From: Dehalococcoidia bacterium
GTDB lineage: Bacteria > Chloroflexota > Dehalococcoidia > Lucifugimonadales > JAGWBF01
Assembly: GCA_021295955.1 (NCBI GenBank)
Contig: JAGWBJ010000001.1
Coordinates: forward strand, 62,001 to 126,000
Reading direction: 5' to 3'
Length of the DNA: 64,000 bases
The notes under the pieces were generated by a model. That model was not told where the DNA came from and made no database searches. It was given only the letters and a program-made list of their open reading frames with translations. Within the stretch, counting starts at the first letter, position 1. Each line of letters begins with the position of its first letter. This document shows, piece after piece, positions 2,108-62,077 of the stretch. Both the position numbers and the translations under genes were made by a program.

Positions 2108-2134
2108 CATATACGCTAAGCATACCCCTGTCAA
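2106..2134 (-). promoter_or_regulatory. Sigma70-type promoter for the molybdenum hydroxylase operon
   Basis: On the minus strand TTGACA (2134-2129) is followed by exactly 17 bp and then TATGAT (2111-2106), a perfect -35 and a 5/6 -10. The predicted start site is near 2099, giving a leader of about 72 nt before the FAD-subunit ATG. Confidence 0.85.
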
Positions 2135-2185
2135 TTGGATTCAGGCACGCCGGGGGAGCGGGAAACCGCCGCTGGAGGGGTCGCT

Positions 2186-3259
2186 ATAAGGCTCTGCGTC
2201 AGGATAGGTACCAGGCTCCTCCAGGACCACCCGGCCGGTCGACTTCACCGGCTGGCGCGTACCGCCGATGCCGCCGGGATCGACTCTCTGTGGGTGCCCG
2301 AGGCGCCCTTCTACTGGGACGCCTTCGCCATCTTGGGAAGCCTGGCGCGGACCACCCACCGGGTCAGGCTGGGGACCGGCGTTACGAGCCCATACTTGCG
2401 CCCTCCGCATCTCCTGGCCATGTCTGCGGCCACCCTGGACCGGCTGGCGGAGGGTAGGGCCTTCCTGGGCCTGGGACGCAGCCTGCCCCAATGGTACCGG
2501 AGGCTGCTGGGCATGGAGACCGGGGAACCGGTGAGGGTGATGGAGGAGACCCTGACGCTGCTGCGCCAATGGTGGCGTGCGCCCCACCAAGCGTCGTCCG
2601 CCGGACACTTTCAGGTCAGAGGGCTCCCCAGGTACACACACGGGCAACAGCCGGTGTTGCCCGTCTACCTGGCGGCCGTAGGTCCCCGGATGCGCCGTCT
2701 CGCGGCGCGCCTGGCCGACGGCGTGCTCCTTCAGTGGCCCACCGTCGATTTCGTGAGAAAGGCCGCCAAGGAAGCCCGGTATGAGGCCTCGGAGGCCGGC
2801 CGCTCCCCCGAAGAGCTCTCTTTGATCGTGGCCACCGCCGTGGAGGTGACCAGAGACACCGGGGCTGCCCTGGACGGGACCAGGCGGGAGCTGGCCCTTC
2901 ACCTGGTCGTCCCGGGTATGGAGAGGTCCATCACGGGGACGGAGCACGACGTGCCTTTGATGGTCTCCAACGTGCGGCAGGCCATGCGGGCTAAGGAGGT
3001 CCTGGACGGCGGGGGCTGGACCAGGGACTTCGAGCGGGTGGGCGACCTGGAAGCGGCGGCGCGGGCCATACCGGCAGACCTGGCTGCCCGCGTGGCCGCC
3101 GTGGGCCCCATCGACACGGTGAGGCGGCGTCTGGCCGAGTACCGGGACGCGGGCGCTACCCATTTCTTCGTACCCGCGCCCGCGGACCAGCCGTCAGAGG
3201 AGTACGCTGAGTACTTGGCAAGCATCTCACCCCCCGGGGAGACGGGCGGCGGAAGATGA
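2186..3259 (+). CDS. LLM class flavin-dependent oxidoreductase (F420/FMN, luciferase-like)
   Basis: This is a bacterial-luciferase-family TIM-barrel oxidoreductase of about 357 residues that probably uses F420 or FMN; the substrate is unknown. Family features are GIDSLWVPEAPFYWDA near the N-terminus, a strand-turn RLGTGVTSPYLRPPH, and VYLAAVGPRMRRLAARLADG in the middle. The start is unusual. The only ATG/GTG/TTG upstream of the conserved N-terminus is TTG at 2135, which directly abuts the divergent promoter's -35 and has no ribosome-binding site. An in-frame ATA at 2186 has GGAGGGG five bases before it and gives IRLCVRIGTRL, a family-like opening. I list from 2186; 2135 (374 residues) is the conventional alternative. 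The gene overlaps the SDR gene by 4 bp. Confidence 0.8.
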   Translation: MRLCVRIGTRLLQDHPAGRLHRLARTADAAGIDSLWVPEAPFYWDAFAILGSLARTTHRVRLGTGVTSPYLRPPHLLAMSAATLDRLAEGRAFLGLGRSLPQWYRRLLGMETGEPVRVMEETLTLLRQWWRAPHQASSAGHFQVRGLPRYTHGQQPVLPVYLAAVGPRMRRLAARLADGVLLQWPTVDFVRKAAKEARYEASEAGRSPEELSLIVATAVEVTRDTGAALDGTRRELALHLVVPGMERSITGTEHDVPLMVSNVRQAMRAKEVLDGGGWTRDFERVGDLEAAARAIPADLAARVAAVGPIDTVRRRLAEYRDAGATHFFVPAPADQPSEEYAEYLASISPPGETGGGR

Positions 3260-8242: not shown

Positions 8243-9061
8243 TCAGATTATCGGTTGGGGATACACGACCCGCATTAAGCACAGGCCCTTGGCTGGCAGT
8301 GAGGGACAGTTCCTCAACTCCCTCAGCGAGCCGTCCGTCAACCTCTTCGTTATGTCCGTCTCCAGTTTCCCCAAGCCCACCTGCACCAAGACTCCGTTGG
8401 CGCGACGTATCAGGTGGGGCAGGAAGCCGTCGGCCTCGGCGTCTATCAGCACCCTGTCCTCCACCGCCTGCACGTCCCATCGGATCACGCGGCGGACCGA
8501 ACTCCGGTGGGGAGGCAGCGGCACCGTCAGCGCGGAGAAGTCCCGGGTCCCGCACAAATGGCCCGCGGCCTCGTGCATCCTGGCGAGGTCCAGTGTACCG
8601 GGCACCCAGTGGGCGTAGTTGCGCAGGAGGGCCGGCGGCCACTTGGTGTTCAGCACCGTGTACCGGTAGGCCCGACTGACGGCGCACCGCCTGGAGTCGA
8701 ACTCCAGGTCCACCTGAGAGACCCCCCTTACCCGGATGTCCTCGGGCAGGTGGGCGTTCAGCGCCCTGGGGAAGGTATCGATGGTGTAAGGTGCGGCGGT
8801 CAGAAAGTCCACCACCTGACCGCTTGCATGGGCCCCTGAGTCTGTCCTGCCGGCCCCCCTGATCCTGATATTCTCTCCCGTGAACCTGGCCAGGGCCTTC
8901 TCGACCTCACCCTGTATGGTCGGTACGCCCCTCTGCCACTGAAACCCCTTGTACCGGGTGCCGTCGTACTCCAGGAGCACGGCCAGCCTCCGGCTCTCGC
9001 CGCGCCGTGGCTCCTCGGAAAGGCCGGCGTCCAGGCCGAGTCCCCTGGAGTCCTCGGACAC
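8243..9061 (-). CDS. truA: tRNA pseudouridine(38-40) synthase TruA
   Basis: TruA converts uridines 38-40 of the tRNA anticodon arm to pseudouridine. The catalytic motif GAGRTDSGAHA holds Asp74, and FALARY-like and RRVIRWD segments are present. At 272 residues it has about 22 extra N-terminal residues (Ser/Glu/Arg-rich) before RLAVLLEYDGT, where most family members begin. It lies between rplQ and rplM, a common neighbourhood in Gram-positives and Chloroflexota. Confidence 0.96.
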   Translation of the reverse strand: MSEDSRGLGLDAGLSEEPRRGESRRLAVLLEYDGTRYKGFQWQRGVPTIQGEVEKALARFTGENIRIRGAGRTDSGAHASGQVVDFLTAAPYTIDTFPRALNAHLPEDIRVRGVSQVDLEFDSRRCAVSRAYRYTVLNTKWPPALLRNYAHWVPGTLDLARMHEAAGHLCGTRDFSALTVPLPPHRSSVRRVIRWDVQAVEDRVLIDAEADGFLPHLIRRANGVLVQVGLGKLETDITKRLTDGSLRELRNCPSLPAKGLCLMRVVYPQPII

Positions 9062-11342: not shown

Positions 11343-11726
11343 CTACACCCTTCTTCGCTTGGGCGGCCGGCACCCGTTGTGGGGGATGGGCGTTATATCC
11401 CGTATGCTGGTGATGGTCAGCCCGGCGGCCTGGAGGGACCGTATCGCCGCCTCCCTGCCCGCACCGGGGCCCTTGATGTACACGTCCACCTGCCGCAGTC
11501 CCTGGTCCATCCCCCGGCGCGCGGCCTGCTCGGCCGCCCGCTGGGCGGCAAAGGCCGTGCCCTTGCGGGAGCCGCGGAAGCCCGAAGCCCCCGAGCTGGT
11601 GGAGACAAGCACGCTGCCCTGGGGGTCGGTGAGGGTCACCAGTGTGTTGTTGAAGGTCGAATGGATGTGGGCCTTGCCCCTGGGCACTACTCGCCTCTCC
11701 CTCCGACGGCTTCTTGGTCTGGCCAT
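11343..11726 (-). CDS. rpsK: 30S ribosomal protein S11
   Basis: S11, 127 residues, of the 30S platform. The segments [37 protein letters not shown] and [18 protein letters not shown] are canonical. The N-terminus is a short Arg-rich run, as normal. It is flanked by rpsM and rpsD in the alpha-operon order. Confidence 0.99.
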
Positions 11727-54728: not shown

Positions 54729-55682
54729 CTAGCCCAGGTGTCCCAGCCTCCTGAAGATACGGCGGACGTTCTGGACGTTGGGGAGCATCGTGTGCAGCAC
54801 CGGCGGCATCTTCCCTCGAAGCAGGGCGCGGAGCCCCACCGGCGCCATGCCGATCATGGCCGGAAGGTTGAAGACTCCGAAGGTCCTGAGGGGCAGCTTC
54901 AGCTCGTCCAGCCAGCCGCTGTGTCCCACGATGTCGACGAAGGCGTCGGTGTGGCGGGCGCCGGTGTTGTCGTCGTACCCGGCGCGGATGGCCCGGTCCC
55001 GCAGGGCCATGATACGGTCCATGGGCGCCACTCCCTTGGGGCACACCTCGACGCATTCGTAGCAGCGGGTGCAGTCCCAGATGCCCGTCTCCTGGCTCAG
55101 GCCGCCCAGACGGTAGCTGTCCTCGCCGTCCCGCGGGTCCGCCACGAACCGGTACGCCTTGGCCAGGGCGGCTGGCCCCAGGAAATTGGGGTCCACCTCC
55201 AGCACCGTGCAGTCTGAGACACAGGCGCCGCACATGATGCAGTCCATTACGCCGGCCAGGTGCAGCATGTCCTCGTTGGGCGCCAGGTACTCGCCCTCGG
55301 GCTCCGGGCCCTTGGGCTGTAGCCACGGCTCCACCGCCTTCACCTTGTCCCAGAAGGGAGTCATGTCCACCACCAGGTCTTTGACCACGGGCATCACCCC
55401 GGCGGGCTCGATGGTGATGTCCTCCCCCTCGGGAGAGATCTGGGTCACGCGGGTCTTGCAGGCCAGGGCGGCGTGGCCGTTGACGCGCATGGCGCACGAG
55501 CCGCATATGGCGCTGCGGCAGGAGCACCTCAGCGACAGGGTGCCGTCCATGTCCTCGCGGATGTTGATGAGCGCGTCCAGGACGGTGGTGTACTGGTCCA
55601 CCTCGACCTGGTAGTCGGCCCAGTAGGACTCGGGGGTCTCGTCCTCGGGGCCGTATCGCTTTATCTTGAGCTTGACTTCCAT
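54729..55682 (-). CDS. sdhB: Succinate dehydrogenase iron-sulfur subunit
   Basis: A 317-residue SdhB. The N-terminal ferredoxin domain has CSCRSAICGSC for the [2Fe-2S] cluster; CIMCGACVSDC and CTRCYECVEVCP hold the [4Fe-4S]/[3Fe-4S] clusters. It is longer than classical SdhB (about 240) through a C-terminal extension of about 70 residues with basic, amphipathic helices. ATG 55682 overlaps the sdhA stop (TGATG); nine upstream codons would cross into sdhA. Confidence 0.95.
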   Translation of the reverse strand: MEVKLKIKRYGPEDETPESYWADYQVEVDQYTTVLDALINIREDMDGTLSLRCSCRSAICGSCAMRVNGHAALACKTRVTQISPEGEDITIEPAGVMPVVKDLVVDMTPFWDKVKAVEPWLQPKGPEPEGEYLAPNEDMLHLAGVMDCIMCGACVSDCTVLEVDPNFLGPAALAKAYRFVADPRDGEDSYRLGGLSQETGIWDCTRCYECVEVCPKGVAPMDRIMALRDRAIRAGYDDNTGARHTDAFVDIVGHSGWLDELKLPLRTFGVFNLPAMIGMAPVGLRALLRGKMPPVLHTMLPNVQNVRRIFRRLGHLG

Positions 55683-57361
55683 CAGTACTTCCTCTCCTCG
55701 GGCGTCCACTGGGTTATCACCACGGGAAGGTGGGAAACCTTGGGCCCGTCGTCAGAGTGGGAGACCAGAACGTGCTTCAGCCAGTTCTCGTCGTCCCTCT
55801 CGGTAAAGTCGGTGCGGGAGTGGGCGCCGCGGCTGTCCTTCCGCTCCAGGCCGCTCAGCACGATGGCTTCGGCACAGTCCAACATGAACCCCAGCTCCAG
55901 GGCGAAGATCAGGTCCGTGTTGAAGACGCTACCCTTGTCCTCCACGGGCACGGAGGCGTACCGCTCCTTCAGCTTGCGGACGTCGGCCAAGGCCGCGGTC
56001 ATTCCCTCTTCGTTGCGGTATACGCCCAGGTGCCGGTCCATGGTCACGCCCATGTCCCGGCGCACCGAGGCCACCCGGTCGCCGTTGGCCGGCCGGTCCA
56101 GCACGCCGCGGAGCCTGGCCTCCTCTTCGGCGACCAGCGTCCTGATGTCCAGGTCCCGGTACTCCTTGTCCGAGGCGACTGCGGCGGCGTGGTTTCCCGC
56201 CCGGTGGCCGAAGACGATGGTGTCCAGCAGGGAGTTGGCCCCCAGCCGATTCCCGCCGTGGACGCTGACGCAGGCGCACTCGCCGGCGGCGTACAGGCCA
56301 GGCACCCTGGTGAGGCCGTCCACGTCCGTCTTGATGCCGCCCATGATGTAGTGCATGCCGGGTGTGATGGGAATCGGCTCCTTGGTTATGTCGACTCCCA
56401 CCAGGTCCAGACCGATGTCATAGATCTGGGAGAGCTTCTCCCGTATCACCTGCTCTCCCAGATGGCGGCAGTCCAGCAGCACGCACCCGTCGACGCCGTT
56501 GCCCTCGGCGATCTCGGTGGCCTCGGAGCGGGAGACCACGTCCCTTGAGGCCAGCTCCATCATACTGGGGGCGTACCTCTCCATGAACCGGTCTCCGTGG
56601 CGGTTCAGCAGGTAGGCGCCTTCACCCCTGGCGCCCTCGGTGATGAGGACGCCGCTGCCCTTGAGGGTGGTCGGATGGTACTGGACCATCTCCATGTCCA
56701 TGAGCAACGCGCCGGCGTTGTAGGCCAGGGCCATGCCGTCCCCGGTGACGATGAGGGCGTTGGTGCTCGGCTCATACGCCCTGCCCACCCCGCCCGTGGC
56801 CAGGACCACCGTCTTGGCCCGGATGACGTAGAGGCGGCCGGTCCGTATCTCCATCGCCACCACGCCGCAGCACTCGCCGTCCTCCAGGATGAGCCTGGTG
56901 ACGAACCACTCCTCGTAGCTGGCGACCTGGGACTTCATGAGCTGCTCGTGAAGCACGTGGAGCATGGCCTGGCCCGTGAAGTCGGCGACGAAGAAGGTCC
57001 GGGCCCGGCGCTGGCCCCCGAAGGACCTGGTGCCCAGCCGGCCGTCGTCGTCCCGGTTGAAGATCACCCCCATGTGCTCCATGGAGATGAGCTCCTCGCC
57101 GGCGACCTTGCACATCAGCTCGATGGCGTCTTGGTCCCCCAGGTAGTCGCTGCCTTTGACCGTGTCGAAGGCGTGCTCTTCCCAGCTATCGCCCCGGTCC
57201 ACCAGGGCGGCATTGATGCCCCCCTGGGCGGCGTTGGAGTGGCTTCTCACCGGGTACACCTTGGATATGATCCCGACGTCGGCGCCCGACTGGGCGGCGG
57301 CCAGGGCGGCCCTCATGCCGGCCAGGCCCGCGCCAATCACCAGTACGTCGTGTTCAAGCAT
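55682..57361 (-). CDS. sdhA: Succinate dehydrogenase/fumarate reductase flavoprotein subunit
   Basis: A 559-residue flavoprotein. [14 protein letters not shown] binds [18 protein letters not shown] contains the His that carries covalent FAD, and [10 protein letters not shown] and [14 protein letters not shown] are family motifs. ATG 57361 has AAGGAG before it. The first 35 bp of the gene with its ribosome-binding site are duplicated upstream (49-bp tandem repeat); the upstream copy is out of frame and stops after 18 codons. It should oxidise succinate to fumarate with SdhB and the HdrB-like subunit. Confidence 0.96.
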
Positions 57362-57422
57362 GGGCGTCTCCTTGGCCCGCGCCAATCGCCAGTACGTCGT
57401 GTTCAGGCATGGGCGTCTCCTT
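57325..57422. repeat. 49-bp tandem duplication of the sdhA start region
   Basis: Units 57325-57373 and 57374-57422 differ at only two positions. Each contains AAGGAGACGCCC followed by ATG. The upstream ATG (57410) opens an 18-codon frame that ends at a TGA overlapping the true start (ATGCTTGA). Confidence 0.95.
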
Positions 57423-57433
57423 GAATAAAGAGG

Positions 57434-57978: not shown

Positions 57979-58845
57979 CTAGTACTGTATGGCCCTCGTG
58001 CTGCTCTGTCCCCCGCCGAACCCCAAGCGCCTCGTGAGGGTCTCGTAGTAGTGGGTGGCCGGATAGGCCCGAAGGAACAGCGCCTTCAGGTGGCTCTGCC
58101 GCACCTGCACGCCGTCTCCCGCCAGAAGCTCGGCGTCCTGGAACCCGTCCACACTGAGCATGGCCTGGTGGTCCGTCTCCACTACCAGCTTCACCACCGA
58201 GGAGCCTGGCAGCACCAGCGCCGGGGCCATCCCCACGTGAGGCGCCACGGACTTGAGTATGATGTCGGTGGCCTGGGGCGCCAGGATCGGTCCGCCAACG
58301 GCCAGGTTGTACCCCGTACTGCCCGTGGCGGTGGACACGATGACGGCGTCGGCCCGGAAGTCCGTCAGATGGGCCCCGTCTATGGCCGTGCGCACCTGCA
58401 CGACCCGGGAGGTGGCCCCCCTGCCCACGACGGCATCGTTCAGGGCATGGTACACCCCGTTGGAAGCGCCAGCCTCGTCCGTGCCTCTCACCCGTGCGAC
58501 TTCGACCCTCAGCATGGACCGTCCTTCGACCCTTGCCGTCCCCTCCAGATAATGGGGTACCGAGTCCAGCGCCTCGTCGGCCTCCAGCTCCGTCATGAAC
58601 CCCAAGCGCCCCATGTTGACGCCGAGAATGGGTATTCCGTTGGGCGCCGTGACGGTGGCGGCGCGGATGATGGTCCCGTCGCCGCCCACCGTGACGACCA
58701 AGTCCGTGTCCCGGGCGACGGACATGTCGGGGCTCACGTCGGAGGTCGAGCACACCCACGCCCTGTCCTGGAGGTCCAGCCGTTCGATCAGGGCTGATGC
58801 CATCTCGAGGGCCTCCGCCTGACCGCACTTGTAGATAAACCCTAT
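57979..58845 (-). CDS. nadK: NAD kinase
   Basis: NadK makes NADP from NAD. The motif GGDGT, then ILGVNMGRLGFMTEL, NDAVV and STATGSTGYNLAVGGPIL are complete. The start is unusual. ATG 58803 cuts off the first strand and half of a helix (IGFIYKCGQAEALEMASAL), which continue in frame upstream. Before that helix there is no ATG, GTG or TTG, only an ATA at 58845 preceded by AGGTAAG, and a TGA stop 11 codons above. I list the gene from ATA 58845 (288 residues); from ATG it is 274. Confidence 0.88.
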   Translation of the reverse strand: MGFIYKCGQAEALEMASALIERLDLQDRAWVCSTSDVSPDMSVARDTDLVVTVGGDGTIIRAATVTAPNGIPILGVNMGRLGFMTELEADEALDSVPHYLEGTARVEGRSMLRVEVARVRGTDEAGASNGVYHALNDAVVGRGATSRVVQVRTAIDGAHLTDFRADAVIVSTATGSTGYNLAVGGPILAPQATDIILKSVAPHVGMAPALVLPGSSVVKLVVETDHQAMLSVDGFQDAELLAGDGVQVRQSHLKALFLRAYPATHYYETLTRRLGFGGGQSSTRAIQY

Positions 58846-58951
58846 CTTACCTGTGGATTTCGACGTCGCCCCGCCCCTTCAGACCTCGATCGTCGGCGCC
58901 GCGTTCGCCGTGGATGGGCCCTGGAATGCGCCCCGGCGGCAGGCCACCGGC

Positions 58952-58980
58952 AGTCTAGCATCGCTACGAACGGGTGTCAA
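58952..58980 (-). promoter_or_regulatory. Sigma70-type promoter for nadK-Nudix-sdhABE
   Basis: TTGACA (58980-58975), 17 bp, TAGACT (58957-58952). Plus-one near 58945 leaves about 100 nt before ATA 58845. The genes nadK, Nudix, sdhA, sdhB and sdhE follow on the same strand without another clear promoter. Confidence 0.8.
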
Positions 58981-60536: not shown

Positions 60537-62077
60537 CGGACCGCCTCCAACCCTTGCACCGCCTGTAGAATGGGCTCGACGCCGGCGTCAAACACGTCGG
60601 CGATGAAGGCCGGGTAGAACCCCACCACCACGATGCTGACCACCAGCACGCCCAGGGGTATGGCCTCCACCAGCGCCGCGTCGCCGATGGAGGAGAAGCG
60701 CTCCCGGGGCGGTCCGAACATGACCCGCTCGATCATCCACAGTATGTACCCGGCGGCCAGCACGATGCCGCACACCGCCAGCACCGTGGGCCACGGGAAG
60801 GCCTCGAAGGAGCCCAGGAACACCAGCACCTCGGCCACGAAGCCGCTGAGCCCGGGCAGTCCCAGCGACGCAAGACCCGCTATCAGGAAGACCGTGGCTA
60901 TGACAGGCATCCGGCCCGCGAGACCTCCCAGGTCCGGTATGTACCGCGTGTGGGCCTTGTCGTACACCAGCCCGACCAGGAGGAACAGGAGACCGGTGAT
61001 GGTGCCGTGGGCGAACATCTGCATGTTGGCCCCGGACAGGGCCACGCTGGAAGCCGAACCCCCGCCCACGGCCACCGCCACGCCCAGCATGACGAGCCCC
61101 ATGTGGCTCACGCTGCTGTAGGCGATGAGCCGCTTCAGGTCCGTCTGGCGGATGGTGACCGCCGCGCCGTACAGCACGCTTACCACCGCCAGCACCACCA
61201 GGACCCACGAGAAGGCCTCCGCCCCGTCCAGGTCGGGAAACATGCCCACCGAGACGCGGACCAGCCCGTATCCGCCCATCTTCAGGAGCACCCCCGCCAG
61301 CATCACGCTCACCGCCGTCGGGGCGTCTGTGTGTGCGTCGGGCAGCCACGTGTGGACGGGCCACACCGGAAGCTTGATGGCGAAGGCGGCCACGAAGAAC
61401 CAGAAGATGACGCCGATGGGGATGACGGTGCGGGCCGCGTCGATGCCGTTCTCCGACAGGTAGACCATGTCGAAGGTGCCGTCGATGGGCGTCGCGTACA
61501 CGGCGACGATGGCCACCAGCATGAAGGCGCTTCCCAGGATCGTGAAGATCAGGAACTTCATGGCCGAGTACTCTTTACGGCCTGTCCCCCAGATGGAGAT
61601 CAACAGGTACATGGGCAGGAGCTCCAGCTCCCAGAACAGGAAGAAGAGCAGGAAGTCCAGTGAGACGAACACCCCCAGGACCGCCGTTTGCAGCACCAGG
61701 AGCCAGATGAAGTACTCCCGCACCCGCAGCTTGACATGCCAGGACGCCAGCACGGCGCAGAAGCCCAACAGCCCGGTCAGCAGCACCATCGGTGCGCTGA
61801 GGCCGTCCACACCCAGGTGGTAACTGGCCGAGAACGTCTCGTTGTTGAAGATGGTACCGACGCCTATCCAGTCAAACCGGTCGACGAGCTGGAACCGGTC
61901 GGCCCCCTCACCTTTGTCAAACAGGGAGAAGACGGTCACGGCCAGGGCCAGCTCCACCAGCGCCACGGCGACGGCAAAGGCGCGCACCAGCACGTCGCTC
62001 CGCAACGCGGCGGCGATGACCAGCGCCCCCAGCAGGGGGACGAACACGGTGGCCGTCAGAAGCCCGTTGAACTCCAT
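60533..62077 (-). CDS. nuoM: NADH-quinone oxidoreductase subunit M
   Basis: NuoM is an antiporter-like subunit of complex I: 514 residues, about 14 membrane segments. LFWELELLPMYLLISIWG carries the conserved Glu, AFAIKLPVWPVHTWLPDAHT the Lys, and LKRLIAYSSVSHMGLVMLG the discontinuous-helix region. It lies 47 bp after nuoL and overlaps nuoN. Confidence 0.97.
   Translation of the reverse strand: MEFNGLLTATVFVPLLGALVIAAALRSDVLVRAFAVAVALVELALAVTVFSLFDKGEGADRFQLVDRFDWIGVGTIFNNETFSASYHLGVDGLSAPMVLLTGLLGFCAVLASWHVKLRVREYFIWLLVLQTAVLGVFVSLDFLLFFLFWELELLPMYLLISIWGTGRKEYSAMKFLIFTILGSAFMLVAIVAVYATPIDGTFDMVYLSENGIDAARTVIPIGVIFWFFVAAFAIKLPVWPVHTWLPDAHTDAPTAVSVMLAGVLLKMGGYGLVRVSVGMFPDLDGAEAFSWVLVVLAVVSVLYGAAVTIRQTDLKRLIAYSSVSHMGLVMLGVAVAVGGGSASSVALSGANMQMFAHGTITGLLFLLVGLVYDKAHTRYIPDLGGLAGRMPVIATVFLIAGLASLGLPGLSGFVAEVLVFLGSFEAFPWPTVLAVCGIVLAAGYILWMIERVMFGPPRERFSSIGDAALVEAIPLGVLVVSIVVVGFYPAFIADVFDAGVEPILQAVQGLEAVR

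Follow-up and report, generated by a model that had tools for sequence, protein, structure and literature searches.

The window analysed here, a stretch of 64,000 nucleotides (positions 62001–126000 of contig C29 in genome G000), carries on its minus strand a gene for NAD kinase, nadK. The assembly, 2,563,525 bases in 30 contigs, is metagenome-like, with 87.68% completeness and 7.04% contamination. The identity of the gene is clear from its families: both Pfam NAD kinase domains exceed their curated cut-offs in the product (PF20143 with 84.1 bits against 23.7, PF01513 with 64.7 bits against 25.5), 21 distinct solved sequences match it at E 1e-10 or better, and each of the 18 NCBIfam models that match it names NAD kinase. 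All 18 NCBIfam scores lie below the models' own cut-offs, the best reaching 171.3 bits where the equivalog cut-off is 316. The match is single in this genome, and an alignment with 58 relatives shows, as conserved columns, the first strand and the helix that precede the GGDG region. In its families, single copy, first strand and promoter the gene resembles an ordinary bacterial nadK; the difference is that here no standard start codon stands above the first strand. The features of the locus are:

57979–58878, minus strand: open frame of nadK, from the codon after the TGA at 58881–58879 to the TAG at 57981–57979
58952–58980, minus strand: promoter-like TTGACA-N17-TAGACT, one found against a mean of 0.0 in shuffled sequences; message expected from near 58945
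58874–58879, minus strand: AAGGGG, putative Shine-Dalgarno (SD) sequence, 7 nt upstream of the ACG
58864–58866, minus strand: ACG, best candidate start, giving a 295-residue protein; offset 7 above the strand, as in 10 of 58 relatives; SD −7.5 kcal/mol
58843–58845, minus strand: ATA, likelier the first residue of strand 1 (Ile or Val in 55 of 58 relatives); SD −1.9 kcal/mol
58801–58803, minus strand: ATG, first in-frame standard start, preceded by GGAGG and lying within the first helix; SD −9.5 kcal/mol

A conserved N-terminus without a standard start

Read on the minus strand, the TGA at 58881–58879 is followed by AGG (58878), GGC, GGG, GCG (58869), ACG (58866), TCG (58863), AAA, TCC, ACA, GGT and AAG (58848), and then by ATA (58845), GGG, TTT, ATC, TAC and AAG. 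This codon reading bears out the preliminary description, which had placed a TGA 11 codons above the ATA with no ATG, GTG or TTG between the two. The first in-frame standard start is the ATG at 58803, 14 codons inside. From 58946 down to that ATG the only other ATG, GTG or TTG in any frame is an out-of-frame GTG at 58828; a GTG at 58947 is in frame with nadK and is separated from it by the TGA.

We aligned the open frames of 60 nadK loci from 59 genomes, our own included; one genome (G055) gave two loci, and two additional weak pieces from G020 and G004 stand outside the set. The start counts leave out our own gene and L038, which is cut by a contig end, so that they refer to 58 complete loci from 57 genomes. 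All 58 have a standard start 2–13 codons above the first strand, most commonly at offset 6 (35 loci) or offset 7 (10 loci), with two loci having both, and our nadK is the sole one of the 59 complete loci that has none. Where its relatives begin with an ordinary start codon, this gene does not have one.

The alignment also confirms the earlier claim that the N-terminus, with its strand IGFIY, extends above ATG 58803: the strand is conserved in the relatives, 58 of 58 of which have a standard start above it, and of 65 hits to relatives 48 have good scores in the part above that ATG. In the column of the ATA 55 of the 58 relatives have Ile or Val, in the next column 52 have Gly and in the fifth 42 have Tyr; of 15 columns our gene carries the commonest residue at just 7. 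In the ATA-start protein the Pfam N-terminal model does not match until residue 44; in the ACG-start protein no match to a solved structure begins before residue 17, and most begin at 45 or later. Because these matches start late, the first strand rests on the alignment of relatives together with two NCBIfam models, which extend to the N-terminus (residue 4) and put the ATA residue approximately 3 and 6 positions into their profiles. A single-sequence structure model, of low confidence and too poor to add support (mean pLDDT 43.7), predicts a strand at residues 8–12 and a helix at residues 17–29, with the Met encoded at 58803 (residue 22) inside the helix. Since no standard start lies above this conserved N-terminus, the gene calls for either a start codon outside the standard set or a base that has changed.

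Candidate start codons and rival explanations

Given the promoter-like element at 58980–58952, the message should begin near 58945. The exact hexamers TTGACA and TAGACT lie upstream of nadK in 16 of the 59 loci listed, our own included, and the nadK promoter seems, from these sequences, to be unusually conserved in the order. The other loci with TTGACA-N17/18-TAGACT are L002, L003, L007, L009, L011, L012, L015, L017, L019, L020, L023, L036, L037, L049 and L053 (35–66% protein identity); summed over the 59 genomes the pattern has 204 matches, and a reversed control has 14.

The preliminary description was wrong to admit no codon but ATA 58845 as an opening for nadK. Four codons above or at the strand are one base away from ATG, namely AGG 58878 (offset 11), ACG 58866 (offset 7), AAG 58848 (offset 1) and the ATA itself (offset 0); the ACG, 7 codons above the ATA, has an SD score typical of the window. 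The scores are given in kcal/mol; for comparison, 33 genes of the window have a median of −7.3 and 300 random places one of −3.5. One surveyed gene (55682–57433) was scored one codon past its ATG, which hardly affects the median. They are −6.5 for AGG, −7.1 for GCG 58869, −7.5 for both ACG and TCG 58863, −1.9 for both AAG and ATA, and −9.5 for ATG 58803. In G001, a genome of the same family, AAGGA stands 7 nt ahead of the nadK ATG, behind the same promoter hexamers. On position and SD sequence jointly, ACG is the best candidate for the nadK start, and ATA is a poor one on both.

We therefore have moderate confidence, from these sequence comparisons, that nadK begins at the triplet 58866–58864 and not at ATA 58845. 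Initiation at this ACG would begin with a message from the TTGACA/TAGACT promoter, starting near 58945; the ribosome would bind AAGGGG (58879–58874), which would set the triplet 7 nt downstream in the P site; the initiator tRNA (anticodon CAU) would match ACG at the two outer bases and mispair at the central one, and the enzyme would be produced at a low level, carrying fMet where the codon specifies Thr. Several observations count against this start. TCG 58863 has an identical SD score at the commonest offset (6), chance alone brings 9 of 128 internal ACG codons to −7.5, ATG 58803 surpasses all other nadK candidates in the strength of its SD sequence, and a predicted fold of the leader pairs part of the putative AAGGGG. 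Nor does codon strength give ACG an advantage over ATA in the reporter values excerpted from PMC6925171: in E. coli, ACG yielded 0.1–1.5% of the ATG value in one context, ATA and TCG were among the codons at 19.0–43.9% of ATG in another, and the authors themselves saw little consistency between contexts.

Those reporter values are one argument for ATA 58845 as the real start; others are that it is a near-cognate of ATG and that a neighbouring oxidoreductase gene seems to use the same codon. Nevertheless we consider it very unlikely. Its SD score is weaker than the random median, it encodes the strand's first residue where the relatives start 2–13 codons higher, and no relative depends on a start there: the one with a standard codon in that column (a GTG in L009) also has an ATG 6 codons above. 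One of the other non-standard codons, TCG 58863, GCG 58869 or AGG 58878, could serve instead, as their SD scores are at or near that of ACG and TCG has its favourable offset, but TCG and GCG are two bases off ATG and AGG follows directly on the stop with an SD spacing of 4 nt, and we regard a start at any of the three as distinctly improbable. Translation from GTG 58947, by readthrough of TGA 58881 or with the TGA being an error, would make use of an in-frame standard codon separated from nadK by a sole stop. However, this GTG lies 4 nt past the second promoter hexamer, at or before the expected start of the message, and 34 codons above the strand, as compared with starts within 13 codons in 58 of 58 complete relatives, which leaves such a start barely credible.

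The nearest standard codon, ATG 58803, could also be the sole start, giving an NAD kinase that lacks the first strand. In its favour are an SD sequence equalled by only 9 of 222 internal ATGs, the late beginning of the Pfam N-terminal match, and the fact that most solved relatives align with the ACG-start protein no earlier than residue 45. Against it, our gene retains the conserved strand that such a start would omit, as do all 58 complete relatives, the genome yielded no other nadK, and the low-confidence structure model sets the Met within a predicted helix; loss of the strand would be expected to harm folding. We consider this reading unlikely.

A more serious alternative is that the assembled base is wrong, or is a minor allele, in which case nadK would be an ordinary gene with its standard start at 58866, or else close above the strand. 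A single substitution would be enough, and the assembly is metagenome-like, with the contig number, completeness and contamination given above. The low frequency of true start losses points the same way: in the excerpted results of PMC5622118, among closely related prokaryotes, only 3 of 61,358 ancestral AUG starts had switched to CUG or AUU. If substitution errors were common, however, they should also have left stops, since in 30 genes of the window a stop arises from random substitution 9.6 times as frequently as a start is lost; yet none of the 25 split-gene pairs in an 828-kb sample has a sense-strand stop. Specifically, 24 of these pairs are shadowed by a dominant opposite-strand frame and one is frameshift-like, in a search that misses short fragments and left unreported two TGA-split genes seen elsewhere. 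We judge the likelihood that the organism usually carries another base here to be considerable, though short of even; this estimate overlaps with the reading that places the start at the ACG position.

Three interrupted frames were seen in passing. On the minus strand of contig C22 of our genome, at ∼201321–203401, a gene appears, in comparison with its homologue in G014, to be broken in two by a frameshift, either as a pseudogene or by assembly error. On the same contig and strand, at ∼11418–11723, a thioredoxin-like frame opens right after an in-frame TGA where Cys is expected (FATW-TGA-PTCRA), as does its homologue in G014; we presume it to be a selenocysteine protein of the UxxC type. At L097 (∼8693–8700) a frame likewise opens right after a TGA, where an aligned relative has Cys-Pro-Leu-Cys, and this TGA possibly encodes selenocysteine, judging from the alignment.

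A probable ATA start in a second gene and possible non-standard starts in the lineage

The preliminary description spoke of two ATA starts in one window and left the second gene unnamed. It is probably the oxidoreductase at 2186, a luciferase-like monooxygenase and the only such gene found in the window:

2120–3259, plus strand: stop-to-stop frame of a luciferase-like monooxygenase (PF00296, 194.1 bits), with its first standard start a TTG at 2135
2186–2188, plus strand: ATA, probable monooxygenase start, from its SD sequence and the alignment of orthologues
2174–2180, plus strand: GGAGGGG, Shine-Dalgarno sequence, 5 nt (TCGCT) before the ATA; −9.8 kcal/mol

The SD score of this ATA, to be compared with 0 for the upstream TTG 2135, is matched by only 3 of 93 internal ATA codons. 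Exactly at the position of the ATA, a TTG stands in the closest orthologue (L070, 54%); the next (L071, 48%) has a GTC there and no standard start above the conserved part. Two more distant homologues from a single genus (L077 and L078) have no standard start and carry a CTG near the expected place. This second case, then, looks like a real ATA start; it is probable on sequence grounds, and a stronger one than can be made for ATA in nadK.

To see how common start-less genes are, we sampled 827,936 bases of our own genome (∼32%, the window included) and 800,000 of G014. A screen of 304 of our open reading frames with homologues was followed by a stricter, anchor-based method applied to 251 of our genes and 189 of G014. 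Sampling was uneven: for nadK and the oxidoreductase many relatives had been fetched deliberately, while most genes were compared mainly with G014. A first filter was too loose and gave 59 candidates among the 304, as BLAST alignments continued into upstream noise; a second flagged 34 of the 304, and was blind to the oxidoreductase with its TTG far upstream. The anchor-based test flagged 21 of 251 and 17 of 189 genes, respectively, and missed nadK, so its sensitivity is imperfect. In the 251 genes of our genome the standard start nearest the conserved part is ATG in 156, GTG in 63 and TTG in 25, with none in 7. The flagged cases were judged by eye. Most proved to be wrong-strand frames, genes starting a few codons into the alignment, or genes whose homologues differ at the N-terminus, and were rejected; the convincing start-less genes were nadK and the oxidoreductase in our genome and one of the 189 in G014.

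That G014 gene is a reverse-strand frame on contig C1 (793093–794197 of the 800-kb stretch) with no ATG, GTG or TTG on the way from its upstream stop to the conserved SFKIAVIPGDGIG, and with a CTG near the expected start; from its motif we take it to be isocitrate/tartrate dehydrogenase-like. Candidate non-standard starts elsewhere in the order are the GTC in the oxidoreductase orthologue of G049 and the CTG in luciferase-like genes of G056 and G023.

The suggestion that AUA initiation is real in this lineage finds no support in the screen, with just two convincing cases of our own among the 304 and 251 frames tested. Lineage-wide AUA initiation predicts many start-less genes, and within the uneven sampling described these were not found. 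Thus the preliminary description is supported as regards an N-terminus that extends above ATG 58803 without a standard start, and is not supported as regards either an ATA start of nadK or AUA initiation in the lineage. A broader version, that the order uses non-standard starts more often than usual and that a weak nadK start would hold NADP synthesis low, strikes us as improbable.

We also looked at the initiation machinery. IF3 was not found in our genome, nor IF3_C in G001, the family's only other genome; IF3 is present in 52 of 59 genomes and in all 33 good genomes of the order. Because rplT is likewise missing from our genome, an assembly gap is suggested: rplT adjoins IF3 in G014 and G050, and in G001 it sits at a contig end. 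A loss of IF3 may therefore be only apparent, its neighbour being absent here too and the contig of G001 ending next to rplT. Among the tRNA loci scanned (30 of 36) none has a TAT anticodon and three have CAT.

Known systems and significance

One bacterial gene with a start other than AUG, GUG or UUG is infC of E. coli, which begins with AUU, a codon tied to autoregulation by IF3. Like nadK here it is a conserved gene with a near-cognate codon at the usual start position; the difference lies in that tie to autoregulation, of which nadK shows no sign, and in the nadK codon being known from one assembly only. Edited chloroplast genes also have a genomic ACG where their relatives have ATG, but theirs depend on C-to-U editing of ACG to AUG, which according to the excerpted text of PMC9845219 has not been observed in bacteria. 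As far as titles and abstract openings tell, none of the matches listed in our literature search deals with nadK start codons, and none of the relatives searched comes from the same genus, a contig scan having given one distant relative only.

Should the codon prove to be an assembly error or a minor allele, little biological importance would attach to the finding. The nearest ATG with a good SD sequence, at 58803, misleads here, as comparison of N-termini across relatives makes plain. If the ACG is real, a gene caller restricted to ATG, GTG and TTG would cut off the first strand of NAD kinase, and a central enzyme of an uncultured lineage would start from a weak near-cognate codon.
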